The notes under the pieces: generated by a model | The model's input: the letters and a program-made list of their open reading frames with translations, nothing else | The model's database searches: none | Told to the model about the DNA's origin: nothing | From: Ktedonobacteraceae bacterium | GTDB taxonomy: Bacteria; Chloroflexota; Ktedonobacteria; Ktedonobacterales; Ktedonobacteraceae | DNA length: 64,000 bases | Assembly (NCBI GenBank): GCA_035653615.1 | Contig: DASRBN010000037.1 | Coordinates: forward strand, 249,736 to 313,735 | Reading direction: 5' to 3' | In this document: piece by piece, positions 1,530 through 11,516 of the stretch | Numbering within the stretch: the first letter of the stretch is position 1 | How the letters are laid out: each line of letters begins with the position of its first letter | Program-made: the position numbers and the translations under genes

Positions 1530-3647
1530 TTACATCCGCCCGTAACTATTATACAAATGCCAGTACACACCTCTCCTGGCCAGCAATTCATCGTGCGTCC
1601 CCTGCTCCACGATGCGCCCATCGTCAATCGTCACAATGCGGTCGGCGTTGCGGATCGTGCTGAGGCGGTGCGCGATGATGAACGTCGTGCGCCCGGCGGT
1701 CAGGCGTTTCACCGCCTGTTGAATTAAGGCCTCGGACTCGTTATCGAGCGCGGATGATGGCTCGTCCATAATCAATATCTTGGGCTGGTGCAGGAACATG
1801 CGCGCTATGGCGATGCGCTGGCGCTGGCCAACTGACAGGCTCTGCCCGCGTTCGTGCAGCGCGGTTTGAAAGCCGAGCGGTTGTGATTGAATGAAGTCTA
1901 GGATGTTGGCGTTACGCGCGGCCTCCTCCATCTCCTCCTGCGAAACCTTGCGTAGCAGTCCAAACTTCAAATTGTCTTCGATGGTGCCGCTGAAGAGCGA
2001 GTCGTCCTGCAGGATGACGCCGAACTGGCTGCGCAGGCTCTCGATCTTCAGCTCGCGCAGGTCGTATCCGTCGATAGTCACGCGCCCACTATCGGGAGCA
2101 TAGAAGCGCATCAGCAGGTTGGCAATCGTCGTCTTACCGGCTCCGCTGCGTCCAACCAGCGCAATCGTCGAACCGGCCTGCACCGCGAGATTGATATCGT
2201 GCAATACTTCGATGCCAGGGACATACGAAAAATGGACGTGTTCGAAGGTGATATGGCCCTGTATATTGGGCAACTGGATACCTTTCTCGGCATCGGCCTC
2301 CTCGGGATAGTTAAGCACCTCAAACAGGCGATCAATGGCCACTGCCGCCGCCTGTAGCTGCTGGTTAACGCCGTTCAACGTCGTGACGGGCGAGGAAAGC
2401 TGGCGCAGGATCAGAATGTATGCCGCCAACGCGCCGGCAGTCAGGCCATTCGTCAGCACCAGGTAGCCCCCGAAGCTCAATATCACGATCACCGCCAGCG
2501 CCTGCACGATTCCGATCATCAGGTTCGCCTCGGATTGAAAAATCGTGCGTTTGAAGGAGAGCGTATTGGTATGCATGATCAGCTTTTTGATTATGCGGCC
2601 AAAACGGTGTTCTGCCGCGAGCGCCTTGACCGTTTTGAGGCCCGTTAAACCCTCATACATGGCCCCGTTCATCACCGCGTAGCTCTCCAGCACCTCGCGG
2701 CTCAGCTGGCGCACACGCCGGTTAAAATAGAGGCTTACTCCAATGTAGAAAGGCGAAACTGCTATAACTACCAGCGTGAGCCGCCAGTCTGTCAAAAATA
2801 ACACCACCGTATAGATGATAACCAGCACGATATTGACCGCGGTGTCGAGCAATACCTGGATGACCGTCTGCTGCGCGGATGTGACTTCACTGAGACGGCT
2901 CAACGCCTGTCCAGTAGTGGCGGTGCTCTGGTAGAATGAAAGCGGCAGGCGCAGCATGTGCTTGTAGAACTTATGGGTGATATTGAGGTTGGTTGCCCGG
3001 CTCAGCGACCCCTGCACGTTGCGGTTGAAGAAACTCAGTACTTCCTCTAATAAGAAGACGGCCAGCAGGAAAGCCAGTGACCAGATAAACAGCGAGATAT
3101 CGTGCGAATGGAACACCTGGTCGAGCATGGTACGAAAGATGAATGGCAGCGGGATGGCAGTAAGGCCCACACCGACCGTCAGGAAAAAGGCAAGCACAAT
3201 GTACCACTTAAAAGGAACGACGAACTGCCCGAACTGCCGCAGGTCCTTCCAGCTAAGCTTCTTTTCTCTGGCCCTCTGACGCCTTTCCAATCTCCTGGCA
3301 TAGCCGGTGCTGGCATAGATGGGTCGTCTGGCCTGCTCAATGCTGATGGGCTTAGCTTCTGCCGGTTTTGCCACCTGCATCTTCGCCGTAGGGTATGCGC
3401 TTATTTCTCTATCCATACCACTACTATCGGCCAGTTGAAAGCCGTCTTGAGCTATTCGTGGCCTATGTCCATTGGTTATCGGTTCGACGACAGGCATCTC
3501 GAGCGTGTCATACGCTTCGATTTCGAAATCATCAAGACCGGGGAGAAGAGGTGGCGTCTCCGGTATATGAGAGTCATTCGTCTGTCCGATCAGTCGGACG
3601 GGGCGCGGTGTATTGGTGGGTGTTTGGGGCGCCTGCTCTTCAATCAT
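1530..3647 (-). CDS. ABC exporter, fused membrane and ATPase domains
   Basis: A 705-residue half-transporter of the type I exporter fold. Residues 1-135 are a hydrophilic extension; six membrane helices run from about 137 to 430; the ATPase domain follows with Walker A GRSGAGKTT (about 497-505), signature LSVGQ (about 601), Walker B ILIMDEPSSALD and the switch histidine in IIAHRLSTI. There is no N-terminal C39 peptidase, so a substrate peptide would need another protease. ATG 3647 has AGGTGA just upstream and overlaps the end of the kinase-like gene by eight bases, which implies translational coupling. Such exporters form homodimers at the cytoplasmic membrane. Its position as last gene of the peptide operon makes the matured peptide the likely cargo; a polysaccharide or lipid cargo is the alternative. 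Confidence 0.9.
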   Translation of the reverse strand: MIEEQAPQTPTNTPRPVRLIGQTNDSHIPETPPLLPGLDDFEIEAYDTLEMPVVEPITNGHRPRIAQDGFQLADSSGMDREISAYPTAKMQVAKPAEAKPISIEQARRPIYASTGYARRLERRQRAREKKLSWKDLRQFGQFVVPFKWYIVLAFFLTVGVGLTAIPLPFIFRTMLDQVFHSHDISLFIWSLAFLLAVFLLEEVLSFFNRNVQGSLSRATNLNITHKFYKHMLRLPLSFYQSTATTGQALSRLSEVTSAQQTVIQVLLDTAVNIVLVIIYTVVLFLTDWRLTLVVIAVSPFYIGVSLYFNRRVRQLSREVLESYAVMNGAMYEGLTGLKTVKALAAEHRFGRIIKKLIMHTNTLSFKRTIFQSEANLMIGIVQALAVIVILSFGGYLVLTNGLTAGALAAYILILRQLSSPVTTLNGVNQQLQAAAVAIDRLFEVLNYPEEADAEKGIQLPNIQGHITFEHVHFSYVPGIEVLHDINLAVQAGSTIALVGRSGAGKTTIANLLMRFYAPDSGRVTIDGYDLRELKIESLRSQFGVILQDDSLFSGTIEDNLKFGLLRKVSQEEMEEAARNANILDFIQSQPLGFQTALHERGQSLSVGQRQRIAIARMFLHQPKILIMDEPSSALDNESEALIQQAVKRLTAGRTTFIIAHRLSTIRNADRIVTIDDGRIVEQGTHDELLARRGVYWHLYNSYGRM

Positions 3648-4743
3648 GGCTCTCACCTGCAAAAAGTGACTGTATCAACCGCGGGCCATCGTTGGTGTCA
3701 CGCGCGATTTCAAGCTGATAGCCGGACGCTTGCTCGGCCAGCCGGCTGAGCAGGTGAAATAGTTTTTCCTGCGCATAGAAGGCGTTATTTCCTGTACTCA
3801 TGCACATGTCAATCAACATACGCAGCGTGTCTGCTTTGCTGAGCAGCCTGGCCCTGCTCGTATTCTCCGCTGTCAATGAGGGGAACAGCAGCAGGCGAAC
3901 AGACGTTTGAAAACGTGCAGCTCCTGCTCGCACCTGTTCGATGCTTAAGAAACGCTTATCACGCTGATCGACCGGGTAGTCGCGCAAGAAGGAGAGATTT
4001 TTGAGCAACATAAGCGTATGGGAGCGAACTGAAACCTCGTGTGTGATTGTGTATGCTTCGATTTCTTCGTCGTCCCGACTTTCGCACAGCATTACCAGGT
4101 CATCTCCCAACAGGCCATATCCTTGGAGAGCGCAGCTGAGGCTAAGTGTCGTTTTGCCACTGCCAGATGCACCGATAATCAAAGCTCCTTGCCTGCAATT
4201 CCCGGGAGCAGTGATGGTGGCAGCGTGACAGGGCTCAAATCCGAATTGACCCAGTACCTGTCCCAACGCCAGCAAAAATACATAGCGGCGCAGGAACGTT
4301 CCCTGGTACGCCTCGGGCATCTCGAGCTGCGTAAGCGCAACAGGCTCCATGCGACTCATTACGCTGAGCGCATTGCCATTGATTGGACGTAGCTCCCTGT
4401 AGCTCTGGTACTCGGTCGTATTATCCATGCTCGCGTAGTGCTTGAGTTGTGTATTTGTCAGCAGGCGAATGGTATCCACCCTTCTCCTTGTATGCGGTAA
4501 CCGGACAGGAAAAATTCCGCCGCTCTCATAGCAAAGCACGTAATAGCTTAATTCGCCCCGTACCTGCCGCGGTGGGGCAAACATACCCAGCATCTCGTCA
4601 AGTATGGCCAGAATCGTGGGATGATTGGTTTGACAGATAACGCGAATGTCATGGAAGAAATAAGCCTTGCGCAATAGGCGGCTGCTATCCAACATCTCGC
4701 GTATCGTCGTTTCAAATACTGCCGGTTGTATCTTTTCAGGCAT
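3640..4743 (-). CDS. HprK-like serine kinase-type protein
   Basis: This 367-residue protein carries a P-loop, GASGSGKTT, at about residues 188-196, followed by LQGYGLLGDDLVML, the arrangement of the HPr kinase/phosphorylase catalytic core. The N-terminal half is unlike true HprK, and no HPr or phosphotransferase gene is nearby. HprK-like proteins are known partners of PqqD-like proteins in lasso-peptide loci, where PadeK-type enzymes phosphorylate the peptide C terminus, and in exopolysaccharide-linked loci of unknown role. The frame stays open upstream to 4782 inside the PqqD gene; I chose ATG 4743 because it lies four bases after the PqqD stop and the extra residues look like overlap. The substrate is unknown; the peptide encoded at 5818-5979 is the obvious candidate. 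Confidence 0.82.
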   Translation of the reverse strand: MPEKIQPAVFETTIREMLDSSRLLRKAYFFHDIRVICQTNHPTILAILDEMLGMFAPPRQVRGELSYYVLCYESGGIFPVRLPHTRRRVDTIRLLTNTQLKHYASMDNTTEYQSYRELRPINGNALSVMSRMEPVALTQLEMPEAYQGTFLRRYVFLLALGQVLGQFGFEPCHAATITAPGNCRQGALIIGASGSGKTTLSLSCALQGYGLLGDDLVMLCESRDDEEIEAYTITHEVSVRSHTLMLLKNLSFLRDYPVDQRDKRFLSIEQVRAGAARFQTSVRLLLFPSLTAENTSRARLLSKADTLRMLIDMCMSTGNNAFYAQEKLFHLLSRLAEQASGYQLEIARDTNDGPRLIQSLFAGESHD

Positions 4744-4747
4744 ACTG

Positions 4748-5029
4748 TTATGCAGTGGTATGTGATGGAGCAGCAACATCACTCAGAAGCTGGTTGGCGC
4801 GCAGATCATCGAGCAGCTTTTGCACATCGTGGAGGGCTTGCTCAAAATCTACCTCGTAGGATTCGCAGATGACGGCGGCGATATCGGCCTCCGTATGTTT
4901 GCCGTCGAGCAATTTCCAGATCAATGTGCCGATTACATTCAGATTATAAGAACAACCCTCGCGCGGATCGAGCAGAATTGCTTCGCCATCTAGCTCGCGC
5001 CATAGTACCTTTTCATTCCTGACCAACAT
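4748..5029 (-). CDS. PqqD-like peptide-recognition protein (RRE/B1 type)
   Basis: A 93-residue protein with the PqqD fold signature: a start of VLWRELDGEAILLDPREG, then YNLNVIGTLIWKLLDGKHT, then an acidic helical part (EADIAAVICESYEVD) and a C-terminal helix (LHDVQKLLDDLRANQLL). Members bind the leader of a ribosomal peptide and hand it to modifying enzymes. In lasso loci the equivalent is B1, which reads a Tyr-x-x-Pro-x-Leu leader motif; exactly that motif is present in the peptide at 5818-5979. The start has GAGGAG seven bases upstream and overlaps the preceding peptidase gene by 17 bases. Confidence 0.9.
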   Translation of the reverse strand: MLVRNEKVLWRELDGEAILLDPREGCSYNLNVIGTLIWKLLDGKHTEADIAAVICESYEVDFEQALHDVQKLLDDLRANQLLSDVAAPSHTTA

Positions 5030-5624
5030 TGAATATCTCCTCGGCTTGCCTCTCTACGTTTAACTTATGACCACAAAAAGCACTACAACTGCGTACGCAC
5101 CAGTAACAAGCAAAGACAACGATGCGTGACAATCCATGCAAAAACAGCCGCCCTGCATTGAACTTGTTGAAAGTATATAGACGATAGAGCCGGTAACGCA
5201 ACTGAGCGGTAATAAAGCCACACATTTGGGCTATAGGATGTCGCAAATTAATCAATTGTGTGGTACGACGTACCAGAATAGCGCGCCCAACCACCGATTG
5301 ACCTTCAACCCAACGTGGATGCAGGTGAACGTCGCTCATTTCTAACAATCGGATCATGGAACCGGTTTGTTGATATCGAACGATGCGGTGAATAACGAGT
5401 CCTTCATCCGTCTCAAAAGCTGCGATTTGTCCTATCCGGATCTTGTCAGCAGCTACCGGTTCAATCCGCACCTCATCGCCGACGCGTAATAGCGGATCCA
5501 TGCTGCCACTCGCCACACGGAACCAGAGCGCCTCACCCTGTCGTAATGCATCGATATACAGGGAAGCAAGCGTTTCGGCCTCTCTTTTTTGGGTCTGGCT
5601 CCCAGACATTTTTACATTTTCCAT
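5013..5624 (-). CDS. SipW-like signal peptidase (S24/S26 type)
   Basis: A 203-residue protein from ATG 5624. The core SGSMDPLLRVGDEV contains the expected catalytic Ser41. The general base position reads GLVIHRIVRY, with His79 in place of Lys, as in SipW and eukaryotic/archaeal-type signal peptidases; a later MSDVHLHPRWVEG plus VVGRAI matches the conserved closing motifs. A hydrophobic stretch near residues 160-180 may be a membrane anchor. It sits between the precursor-like gene and the PqqD-like gene, so it may remove the leader of the peptide, a job done by the transglutaminase-like B2 protease in lasso loci. No good Shine-Dalgarno supports the start; TTG 5636 is an alternative. Confidence 0.82.
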   Translation of the reverse strand: MENVKMSGSQTQKREAETLASLYIDALRQGEALWFRVASGSMDPLLRVGDEVRIEPVAADKIRIGQIAAFETDEGLVIHRIVRYQQTGSMIRLLEMSDVHLHPRWVEGQSVVGRAILVRRTTQLINLRHPIAQMCGFITAQLRYRLYRLYTFNKFNAGRLFLHGLSRIVVFACYWCVRSCSAFCGHKLNVERQAEEIFNVGQE

Positions 5625-5686
5625 AATATAGTGCAATCAAGAAAAATCATCTGGCAGGGTATCGTGAAAATAAAACGAATGGCAAT

Positions 5687-5817
5687 TAAAAAGAGAACAT
5701 ACGAACCTCCAGTCCCATCAAAGCGTAGGACATTTGATTGCGTATGTTCACAGAAACTCAGGTGGATGGATATCCGAATCCACCTGACTACCCATATTGC
5801 TGATGGGTCACGATTGC
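5687..5817 (-). promoter_or_regulatory. Triple-hairpin spacer behind the precursor-like gene
   Basis: Between the small peptide gene and the peptidase gene the sequence can form three hairpins. ACCCAT at 5790-5795 pairs with 5803-5808. CAGGTGGAT at 5759-5767 pairs over nine bases with 5778-5786. GAACATACG at 5696-5704 pairs with 5741-5749. None is followed by a T-run on the minus strand, so they are not typical terminators. Such structures often protect a precursor transcript or reduce read-through so that the peptide is made in excess over its processing enzymes. This is inferred from base pairing only. Confidence 0.5.
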
Positions 5818-5979
5818 TTAGTTATCGCCGCCTTGTGTACCTGAGGTTGAGCAACTGAGTTGCTGCTTGCTCGGGGTCATGCGACAGCCAGACGTTGCAA
5901 GTGCCGAAGGCAGGTCGCGAAGACGCTTTACTTCGAGCTTTGGAGCCTGGTACTTAGCACGAGTGGTATGAGTAGTCAT
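5818..5979 (-). CDS. Putative RiPP precursor peptide, lasso-type leader
   Basis: A 53-codon gene, found by reading the gap between sugar transferase and peptidase. GGAGGAG lies six bases before the ATG, an excellent ribosome site. The product begins MTTHTTRAK, then YQAPKLEVKRL (residues 10-20), which fits the Tyr-x-x-Pro-x-Leu recognition motif of lasso leaders, then PSALATSG, where Thr29-x-Gly31 matches the usual leader/core junction. The tail after Gly31 is 23 residues, contains Cys32 and Cys43, many Ser/Thr/Gly/Gln and ends GGDN. No Asp or Glu occurs at core positions 7-9, so a normal lasso ring cannot form. It follows the sugar transferase by 25 bases and precedes the peptidase, PqqD-like, kinase-like and exporter genes. 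A structural or signalling peptide is the alternative to an antimicrobial. Confidence 0.75.
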   Translation of the reverse strand: MTTHTTRAKYQAPKLEVKRLRDLPSALATSGCRMTPSKQQLSCSTSGTQGGDN

Positions 5980-6004: not shown

Positions 6005-6730
6005 CTATGCTCCTGTATGGACGATGAAGACCTTCAACGTCTTTACCAGGATAGCAAGATCGACAATAAAAGAACGGGTATCGATATATTGCATATCAAG
6101 CAGAACGCGCTCATCGTAAGAGATGTGCTGCCGCCCACTGATTTGCCACAAGCCTGTAATGCCGGGTTGGACCAGGAGCCGCTTCTGGGCATACTTGCCA
6201 TAGCGAGGTAGTTCGCTCGGGTGAATAATACGCGGCCCTACCAGAGACATCTGCCCAATTAGAACATTGAACAGCTGTGGTAACTCGTCAAGGCTGGTCT
6301 TGCGTAAAAATCTGCCCACCCGCGTGATCCGTGGGTCATGTTCCAGCTTCATATTCTGCTGGTATTTCCGCATCAATTCCGGGTGTCTTGCCAGGTAGCC
6401 ATCCGCATCATGAATCATTGTCCGAAACTTGAGGGCATGGAATCGTCGCCCCTGTTTCCCGATGATTTCGCGAAAATGTAGTATTTCTCCCCCATCATCG
6501 AGCTTAATACAGACGGCAATCGTCAGAAATACCGGCAGCAGTACCACTATTCCTATCAGCGCCAGAACTATATCGGTCACACGTTTCAGCATGAAATAGA
6601 CGAGTGATGGTTCGCGAATAATGGTCGTCAGGGGTTCAGTATTGAATGCCCCCGTTTTCAGGTTTCCTAATACTTGAGAAGCTGGACCTTCATCCGCACG
6701 CTTAGGTATGGTTACCGTTATTTGTTCCAT
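6005..6730 (-). CDS. Undecaprenyl-phosphate sugar phosphotransferase (initiating)
   Basis: A 241-residue bacterial sugar transferase that would load the first sugar phosphate onto undecaprenyl phosphate at the inner face of the membrane, starting repeat-unit assembly. After a 40-residue hydrophilic N terminus there is one membrane segment (about 44-77), then the catalytic block with KFRTM near 101, [21 protein letters not shown] near 145-165 and [12 protein letters not shown] near 187. This is the short WcaJ/EpsL-like C-terminal form, without the multi-helix N-terminal domain. AAGGAGAGG precedes the start by nine bases. It is divergent from the glycosyltransferase at 7054 and in operon with the peptide genes, which links peptide and polymer production. 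Confidence 0.92.
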
Positions 6731-7053
6731 TCAAACGCCTCTCCTTAATTTGACTTTTTCCCCTCGACGGCTACAGTTTAGCAGACGCAGTACAGCTTGT
6801 CGGTAGTGAAAGAGTTAAGATATGATTGTGAATATTTCAAACCGGTTAAGGTTTCTCTCAAGTTCTTGAGCGGCTTCGCGCGTTTCCCCCCACGTTAAGA
6901 AGAATTAACCAGTTTCCCCCAATCTTTATACTTTTATAACCTCCATCCAACCATCCCTGCTCTTCCTCTTTGATACGCTATTCCTGACCGATTCTTTAGA
7001 TAGATATGATGAAGATAGATATGATGAAGATTGCTTTCCTGAAAGGATTTGCG
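6731..7053. promoter_or_regulatory. Divergent control region with TTAACC motifs
   Basis: This 323-base region separates the minus-strand peptide operon from the plus-strand polysaccharide genes, so promoters for both should lie here. It holds GAAACCTTAACC on the minus strand (6844-6855) and GAAGAATTAACC on the plus strand (6899-6910), two members of a motif that recurs before other genes of the locus. I could not place a convincing -35/-10 pair. Confidence 0.45.
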
Positions 7054-8595: not shown

Positions 8596-10308
8596 ATGAA
8601 CCTTAATTTAAGTGTAATAGTGAGAGCCCTGGTGCGCTGGTCCTGGGTTCTGATAATTTTCTTAATCGTAGGATATGTGCTGGGGAAAGTATTAACTTCC
8701 ATACTTCCCCCACAGTATCAGGCAACTTCTCTCGTGCAGTTGAACGGCGGCTCTCGTGGGATCATTATCCAGCCGGTCGCCTCTTATGCCAACCTGGTAT
8801 CAAGCGATTCCGTTTTGGGCCAGGCGCTAAAACAATTCCCTAAAATAAATCCTGCATCCATAGGAACTAAACAACTGGTCGTGACTCCTGACACTAAATC
8901 GAACAGTATTTCAATTCAGGTTTCGCTCCCCGATGGCAAAGATGCGGCCGGCCTGGCAAACGCGCTTGCGCAGATACTCGTAACCAGTCAGAATGCCTAC
9001 ATCAAAGCACAGACCGAACAGCAACTCAGTCTGCTGCAAGCGAGTATCAAGAACGACCAGAATCAGATCAATAATCTGAAGAATCAGATTATTGCAGTTG
9101 CAGGCCAAACTCCTCCTGGTCAGCAACCTACCCCGGCTAATGTAGCAGAACAACAACAACTACAGAATGAGCAACAACAGTATATAAACCGCCTGAACAC
9201 CGATCAGAATCAATACAATCAATTGGTAACGGACCAGGCGCTGTATGGTCAACCGCTTACAGTAGTGCAGACGGCCACTGTGCCAACTAAACCATCGGGC
9301 ATCACCGGAGTCTTGCCACTGGGGCCGGTGTCACTGGTGGTGATGTTCCTCCTCGGTCTGGCGTCCATTTTCTTCCTTGAGAAGATGGTGAAACGCGTCA
9401 ATAGCGCATATGGATTGCAGAAAGAGACTTCTTTACCTGTGTTAGGTTCACTGCGCTGGACCAGTCCCAGTCCACTAAGCGCTCCCTTACTGAAGGTCAT
9501 CGAATCGAAGAGGCCATACGGCGAAGATTGCCGTGTGATGATGGCGGATGTTCTGTTTCACGCCGAAGATGAAGGCGCGCATATCCTCGCGATAACCGCT
9601 CAGAGACCTCAATCGGGCATCAGCTGCGTGGCTTCGGAGTTGGCGGCTTTGCTGGCTCAGAGTAAAAGGCGTGTATTGTTGATCGATGCCAATTTGCATA
9701 ATCCGGTACAGCACAAACGCCTGGGCATTCCCAATGATGCAGGTCTGGCTAGAATGCTGGAGGAATTGCGCAATCTGAAGATGAATCTCACGGCATCCGC
9801 TCAGGAACCTGTCGAGATGACCCAGCAGGCAGCGGTTTCTATGATGGAAACGCGCCGGGTTGCCGGCGTCCAGCCCAATCAGACGCCTGTGGTGAAGATT
9901 CACCAGCAGCGCTCCAGTTCCAATTCGAACGGCGCATCTGAGCAAAAATTCGTTGACATCTCCGATAAATTCCCTTTCGATAGCTATATTGTCTCTACCA
10001 GCATCCAGAATCTGTATGCTTTGCCGGCGGGCAAGACCTCCACAAACCCGGCCAGCCTGCTCAGCATGCCGGCGATGGAGCATTTCCTGCGCTGGGCATC
10101 TCGTCCTATCGATTACGTGATCATTGATTGCCCGGCTCTTACCTATGCTGAGGCGCATATCCTCGGTGGCTTGAGCGATCAGACGTATCTGGTAGTCGAT
10201 GCCACTCGTGATCGCATGCGACAGGTGGAAGCCACGAAAGACGAACTATTGAGCACGGGGGTGAAAATTTCAGGTCTCATCGTCAATAAGCTGGGACGAT
10301 GGATATAA
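8596..10308 (+). CDS. Wzz-type chain-length protein fused to a degenerate BY-kinase domain
   Basis: A 570-residue protein with a membrane helix near 17-37, an extracellular Wzz domain with coiled coil (about 130-215), a second helix near 245-265 and a cytoplasmic CpsD/Wzc-like ATPase domain. The Walker A site is broken: ITAQRPQSGISC (about 334-345) has Ile where the catalytic Lys should be, while Walker A' RVLLIDANLHNP and YVIIDCPAL are kept. A 90-residue low-complexity insert splits the ATPase domain. There is no C-terminal tyrosine cluster. It probably controls chain length or regulates its intact paralogue rather than acting as a kinase. The next gene overlaps by ten bases. Confidence 0.85.
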   Translation: MNLNLSVIVRALVRWSWVLIIFLIVGYVLGKVLTSILPPQYQATSLVQLNGGSRGIIIQPVASYANLVSSDSVLGQALKQFPKINPASIGTKQLVVTPDTKSNSISIQVSLPDGKDAAGLANALAQILVTSQNAYIKAQTEQQLSLLQASIKNDQNQINNLKNQIIAVAGQTPPGQQPTPANVAEQQQLQNEQQQYINRLNTDQNQYNQLVTDQALYGQPLTVVQTATVPTKPSGITGVLPLGPVSLVVMFLLGLASIFFLEKMVKRVNSAYGLQKETSLPVLGSLRWTSPSPLSAPLLKVIESKRPYGEDCRVMMADVLFHAEDEGAHILAITAQRPQSGISCVASELAALLAQSKRRVLLIDANLHNPVQHKRLGIPNDAGLARMLEELRNLKMNLTASAQEPVEMTQQAAVSMMETRRVAGVQPNQTPVVKIHQQRSSSNSNGASEQKFVDISDKFPFDSYIVSTSIQNLYALPAGKTSTNPASLLSMPAMEHFLRWASRPIDYVIIDCPALTYAEAHILGGLSDQTYLVVDATRDRMRQVEATKDELLSTGVKISGLIVNKLGRWI

Positions 10309-11516
10309 GTTTCGCCTCCGCGAGCCCCAAGGACGCGGTACGTGAAGAGGATTGCTTGCCGCGGGTAGGGGATGTACTCGAGTCGATGTACGGAGGGCTG
10401 GATAACATCCCGGTTCCGGCTTCTCTGGAATCAGGCTCGAGTATTTTGCAGGGCTGCTTGCCACTTTTGATGAAGGAGCTATCATCTGAAGCTCTGTTGC
10501 AGAGGGTTGGCTCTAAAAAGTATGAGCGGCTACGTGATCTCTATTATCAAAGTAGCCTGCTGAACCTGTGGTATAGCTGGGAAGTGAAACGCGTCCTCGA
10601 GACGCTCACCGATGCGCACATTCCGGTAATGGTTTTGAAGGGTGCCGATATCGCGACGACGCTATACCGGCATCCTGAACTGCGCCATTATACCGATGTC
10701 GATCTGATGGTACGCCCAGAAAACCTGGCCGCGACCATTGAATTGCTGAAAGGCCTTGGCTATCGCTACCATCAAGAGTATCGCTTTGAAAGCGTTTCCC
10801 GGCAGCGCGCTGCCTTCGTGTATGTGAAGGAAGTCGCGGCGGGCTACATCGTGTTCGAGATTCATACCTCGCCACATCAAAATGAAATGGGTGTCTCATT
10901 TCAAGCCACTGAACTCTGGGAACGCGCCCGGCCGATCACAATTGAGGGTGTAAATGTGTATGGCATGGGACTTGAGGACCTGCTGCTCTACCTGTGCTGG
11001 CATTTTCGCTCTCACTCGTTCAGCCGTTTGATCTGGCTGTACGATATCACTGTATTGCTCCTGCGCCATGCCGGTGACATCGACTGGCAAAAAGCGTATG
11101 CTATCGCGAAAAAACAAGGGTTGCTATCCACCGTCTACTATTGTGTGCAGTGGTGCCAGGCGGTATTTCATATTTCACTGCCTGAACAGGTTCAAATTGC
11201 GCAATTTGCCCCTCCTGCGCTCATTCGCCACCTGGTCACGCATTTTGTAGGGAATGATTTCAGCGCTTTATTGCACGTAGGTTTACATCACGAGCGCAAA
11301 ATAGTGCAGCGCTTGATGGTGGATGATAAACCAGCCTTATGCCAGGTGATGCTCCGAGTTTGTTTCCCCAGCCCAACGCACCTCGGGCGTCTCTACATGG
11401 AGCATTCGCGTTTGCCGGTGCGCCTTTTCTGGCTCTATTATCCCCTGCACCCTCTCTTCATGCTGCGAGCGTATTTTAAAGATCGCCCGAGAAGAAAGAG
11501 AGCTCAACATATATAA
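10299..11516 (+). CDS. Uncharacterised nucleotidyltransferase-fold protein (NTP_transf_5-like)
   Basis: A 405-residue protein with the nucleotidyltransferase core VMVLKGADIATTLY followed by HYTDVDLMV, in which the paired Asp residues would bind metal, then LKGLGYRYHQEY. This matches the uncharacterised nucleotidyltransferase family often encoded with PqqD- and HprK-like genes in lasso-peptide and exopolysaccharide loci. Its role there is unknown; transfer of a nucleotide to a peptide, protein or sugar is possible. It overlaps the end of the first Wzz gene by ten bases, so it is co-translated with the polysaccharide genes although its usual partners lie on the other side of the divergent promoter. 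Confidence 0.8.
   Translation: MDISFASASPKDAVREEDCLPRVGDVLESMYGGLDNIPVPASLESGSSILQGCLPLLMKELSSEALLQRVGSKKYERLRDLYYQSSLLNLWYSWEVKRVLETLTDAHIPVMVLKGADIATTLYRHPELRHYTDVDLMVRPENLAATIELLKGLGYRYHQEYRFESVSRQRAAFVYVKEVAAGYIVFEIHTSPHQNEMGVSFQATELWERARPITIEGVNVYGMGLEDLLLYLCWHFRSHSFSRLIWLYDITVLLLRHAGDIDWQKAYAIAKKQGLLSTVYYCVQWCQAVFHISLPEQVQIAQFAPPALIRHLVTHFVGNDFSALLHVGLHHERKIVQRLMVDDKPALCQVMLRVCFPSPTHLGRLYMEHSRLPVRLFWLYYPLHPLFMLRAYFKDRPRRKRAQHI

Follow-up and report, generated by a model that had tools for sequence, protein, structure and literature searches.

Gene order at the locus

The window analyzed here, a stretch of 64,000 nucleotides (G000:C37:249736-313735) from a 6.6-Mb Ktedonobacteraceae genome, carries an operon-like run of minus-strand genes within an exopolysaccharide locus. 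The run comprises a polyprenyl-phosphate sugar-1-phosphate transferase (6005..6730; Bac_transf, E = 6e-62), a 53-residue precursor peptide (5979-5818), a putative leader peptidase resembling signal peptidase I (SpI-like; 5013..5636), a putative leader-binding protein of the PqqD/RRE type (4748..5029), an HprK-like kinase (K1; 3640..4782), and an MsbA-like ABC exporter (1530..3662) in which no C39 peptidase domain was found. From the SpI-like protease onward, the gene ends overlap. Five genomes carry the kinase locus (G000, which is the window genome, G001, G003, G004, and G013), but the G003 contig ends within the kinase gene. The exporter is conserved beside K1 in all five and kept together with K1 and a second HprK-like kinase, K2, while the trio of sugar transferase, precursor, and SpI-like protease is kept together in four, the transferase lying directly upstream of the precursor in the window as in G001, G004, and G013. 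The precursor is present in 4 of 29 genomes of the family, and close K1 and K2 kinases occur in only 5 of 400 genomes sampled from the phylum.

In G001, G003, G004, and G013, K2 is found past the exporter in a tail-to-tail arrangement; in G000 it lies ~13 kb from K1, with other genes between. One of these (L038:19165-19551), found between K2 and the exporter in the window genome only and located shortly ahead of the first window position, encodes a short Cys-rich protein carrying a Tat-like signal; FtsX/MacB-type permeases and a thioredoxin-like protein are encoded nearby. On the other side of the run, a stretch between the sugar transferase and a divergent glycosyltransferase (6797-6898) is conserved with G004 (L041:15435-15560) and may serve as a shared promoter or regulatory region.

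Between the precursor and protease genes, a minus-strand hairpin (GAACATACG..CGTATGTTC; 5695..5749) is present only once in the G000 genome. Its 9-bp stem is identical in G000, G013, and G001, and the element folds better than shuffled sequences (z = -7.2 for G013 and -3.3 for G001); it is absent in G004. The simplest reading is a putative attenuator that would keep the precursor above enzyme levels; a processing element is the alternative. A second, perfect 10-bp stem (TCAGGTGGAT..ATCCACCTGA; 5758-5787) lies just past the precursor stop in the window genome only.

Precursor peptide

The minus-strand frame at 5979-5818 (MTTHTTRAKYQAPKLEVKRLRDLPSALATSGCRMTPSKQQLSCSTSGTQGGDN) is a real gene rather than a chance reading frame, because a strong ribosome-binding site (GGAGGAG) precedes its ATG, three syntenic orthologues exist, and dN/dS is ~0.1. 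The orthologues, which come from G013, G001, and G004 and share this gene order, were detected by tblastn (E = 1e-12 to 1e-13) and found again in a profile search at 4e-29 or better. Between G013 and G001, dN was 0.097 and dS 1.00, and third codon positions account for 25 of the 35 differences. The precursor had no match in NCBIfam or Pfam, and a search of plasmids with the precursor and the SpI-like protein returned none. A weak precursor-like match on contig C99 of G013 (E = 0.005) was rejected since its sequence, when read, was unlike the precursor.

A preliminary description of this frame had proposed a lasso-type leader joined to a core that cannot form a lasso, and its observations hold. 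Tyr10, Pro13, and Leu15 are present within a YxAPKL motif (Tyr10-Leu15) and Thr29 and Gly31 at the proposed junction; the leader ends in LRDLPxALA and, overall, is of the YxxPx[L/I] type. Counting from Gly31, the 23-residue core has S-K-Q at positions 7 to 9, where an acceptor Asp or Glu would be expected, and its two Cys residues, Cys32 and Cys43, lie 11 apart within C-x2-T-x-S-K-x2-[LM]-S-C-S. In the alignment of four orthologues, the invariant residues are R7, Y10, P13, E16, V17, L20-R-D-L-P24, A26-L-A28, S30, G31, C32, T35, S37, K38, and S42-C-S44. After the leader motif, the core is the most conserved part of the precursor. With Gly31 taken as core residue 1, Asp and Glu are absent from positions 7 to 9 in all four orthologues. 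The residues leading up to the first Cys and those following the second vary in number, yet the spacing between the two Cys is constant in 4/4 precursors. The expectation that the Cys pair and the Thr-x-Gly junction would both be conserved was thus borne out for the Cys pair and Gly31 and failed for Thr29, which is Ala in G004; a lasso-style Thr at the junction is therefore not required. Thr at this position is not universal among lasso peptides either, since Bsf has Ile.

Recognition protein and leader peptidase

The recognition protein matches Pfam PqqD (E = 3e-19) and is putatively of the B1/LppB type. LppB belongs to the Linear Polyphosphorylated Peptides (LPP), described by Popov et al. 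(2026) from the lpp cluster of Paenibacillus alginolyticus (PMC13381572). In LppB, N33 and D70 hold the YxxP motif (PMC13381572), and their counterparts here, Asn31 and Asp68, are both invariant. Against structures, however, the profile of the window protein ranked the lasso proteins TbiB1 (E = 1e-10), PbaB1 (5e-9), and TfuB1 (6e-7) ahead of LppB in fourth place (3e-6). The recognition protein is thus nearer to the lasso B1 group than to LppB and may have an origin separate from that of the LPP clade.

A signal-peptidase-I-like protease, overlooked in the preliminary description, replaces the lasso protease B2. By its sequence, it is of the archaeal/SipW/SEC11 type: the match to NCBIfam sigpep_I_arch fell below cut-off (E = 7e-10), but a PDB profile search matched SEC11A (E = 1e-8) with the Ser, His, and Asp aligned, these residues (Ser45, His83, and Asp102) are invariant in four orthologues, and the core of a structural model matches folds of the signal peptidase/LexA superfamily. 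Its true start may lie downstream of the listed TTG. Three other kinase-bearing Chloroflexota loci tested by tblastn had no SpI homologue.

PF13471, the domain of B2, was not found in any of the five genomes; drafts of 84 to 95% completeness could miss a gene, but G004 is a single contig. The absence is meaningful because G168, G105, and G311, Chloroflexota genomes that also encode HprK-like kinases, were positive in the identical search. These results bear on whether the system is an unusual or degenerate lasso pathway, whose B2 and cyclase act from elsewhere and possibly cyclize through a residue other than Asp or Glu. The leader motif, which fits the lasso pattern YxxPx[L/V/I/A/F/Y], and the discrete recognition protein are indeed of the lasso type, and Asn_synthase matches occur in the four genomes searched; none of those placed lies near the cluster, though, and no Asn-synthetase-like cyclase was found near it. 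With B2 missing despite positive controls from the same phylum, no acid near positions 7 to 9, and Thr29 not conserved, we regard a lasso product as highly improbable, and the Thr-x-Gly lasso junction proposed earlier is not upheld. Elsewhere in the phylum, a lasso-type precursor (MKYEQPLLLEHGALRDVTGTG...) at L097:8959-10755 has an RRE and an HprK-like kinase as neighbors, and its leader has an LRD stretch in common with the window precursor.

Kinases and sugar-handling enzymes

K1 was identified by alignment and a match to HprK_rel_A that is below cut-off (E = 1e-8). His186, Lys210, Asp227, and Asp228 of K1 are invariant, and the same His-Lys-Asp-Asp set, required in the lasso kinase ThcoK, is found in K2; both kinases are conserved in five of five kinase-locus genomes. 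Phosphorylation, the first modification guessed at in the preliminary description, gains support from this pair of conserved enzymes. The kinase tree separates K1 from K2, with each group on its own side of a branch (100/99). A scan of named genomes with the kinase profile gave one distant match only, and an AlphaFold kinase model (pLDDT of 37) was too poor for use. Beside K2, no other conserved small reading frame on a plausible strand was found that might be a second precursor; the remaining small matches there were antisense or non-coding.

Conserved kinases next to a Cys-bearing core raise the question of whether phosphorylated Ser or Thr is eliminated to dehydro-residues and then captured by Cys in thioether rings, as in lanthipeptides, rather than the Cys pair closing a disulfide. 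The conserved Ser and Thr between the two Cys would suit such chemistry. Nevertheless, no lyase or LanC-like cyclase was recognized among the cluster genes and characterized HprK-type RiPP kinases leave stable phosphates, so we give thioether formation very little credence. A disulfide between Cys32 and Cys43 is plausible because the pair is conserved in all four precursors.

An NTP_transf_5 nucleotidyltransferase of the PsmN/LppN-type family (10299..11516, plus strand; PF14907, E = 3e-46) has a full-length match in five of five genomes, which in G001 and G004 lies close to the cluster. It is a possible second tailoring enzyme and, judged from its family, putatively a glycosylation-type enzyme for this peptide. 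Its homologue PsmN has been linked to hexose addition on phospho-Ser. Conceivably, the phosphopeptide serves as a carrier or primer that receives sugar through NTP_transf_5, the adjacent sugar-1-phosphate transferase, or both, and is linked to exopolysaccharide. The sugar transferase sits immediately upstream in all four precursor-bearing genomes and LPPs are also found in capsule loci (PMC13381572), but the case for a carrier rests on co-location and LppN was inactive in a heterologous host (PMC13381572), leaving this function rather improbable.

Relationship to known systems and proposed pathway

Phosphorylated lasso peptides (paeninodin, pseudomycoidin, and Bsf) resemble the window system in having an RRE, an HprK-like kinase, and a [Y/W]xxPx[L] leader, and pseudomycoidin also has an NTP_transf_5. 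They differ in that here B2 was not found, the cluster is without a cyclase, the ring acid is absent, and an SpI-like protease is present instead; unlike paeninodin, the window precursor has no C-terminal Ser. The SpI-like protease in place of the lasso protease therefore points to an LPP-type system. LPP clusters combine an SpI, a discrete RRE, an HprK kinase, an NTP transferase, and an MsbA-like exporter in a capsule/EPS locus (PMC13381572). All of these have counterparts here, along with a YxxP leader and a core set without a cyclase, the comparison with LppS and LppK being drawn from their descriptions. Of the LPP leader consensus, YxxPxVLxHQxIxFETxxS (PMC13381572), the YxxPx[L/I] part fits, whereas the remainder here is LRDLPxALA[T/A]SG. 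LPP cores have highly variable C termini (PMC13381572), in contrast to the strongly conserved core here with its two Cys residues, a pair not reported in LPP, and the window system has a second HprK-like kinase.

We conclude that the locus is probably an LPP-like RiPP cluster with the whole proposed pathway (probability of about 0.78), lying in Chloroflexota and so outside the Bacillota to which Popov et al. considered LPPs restricted (PMC13381572). The sequences themselves show the gene and its Cys pair, the enzymes and the catalytic residues they carry, the synteny, and that B2 is missing; phosphorylation, the role of the protease, and the order of steps are inferred from characterized relatives. 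It is unlikely, by comparison, that this is a separate RiPP class that was built around a lasso-type recognition protein independently of the LPPs of Bacillota. In that case, two dedicated kinases and an SpI-type protease would make a peptide with a 12-residue ring, closed by Cys and bearing phosphate (perhaps sugar), that acts at the cell surface with exopolysaccharide.

For the LPP-like pathway, we propose that expression of the exopolysaccharide operon yields the precursor, whose YxxPx[L/I] leader is clamped by the PqqD-type protein and delivered to one HprK-like kinase or to both. Mono- or polyphosphorylation would then take place on a Ser close to the end of the leader, with Ser30 the best guess, followed by Ser37, Ser42, and Ser44, these last three possibly serving the second kinase. 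Two features favor Ser30: it does not vary among the orthologues, and it follows the motif Tyr by 20 residues, near the spacing of the phosphorylated Ser3 in LPP (18; PMC13381572) and in the Bsf lasso peptide (19). In place of B2, the SpI-like Ser-His-Asp protease would cut near ALA-[T/A]-S (residues 27 to 30). An ALA at the cut would suit signal peptidases. Even so, the site is not fixed, since LppS cuts after Phe-Glu-Thr (PMC13381572). The core of ~24 residues, spared macrolactam cyclization, would be exported by the MsbA-like pump, its two Cys probably being oxidized to an intramolecular disulfide outside the cytoplasm, and NTP_transf_5 may attach a further group to the phosphate. The disulfide, the exact cut site, the final product, and any role at the surface or in polysaccharide are purely inferred.

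With a core that is short and strongly conserved, an LPP-like system from a second phylum would offer a better-defined target for resolving both product and role. Its occurrence also suggests that the transition from lasso peptide to unthreaded phosphopeptide, by exchange of the leader protease, may have taken place more than once.
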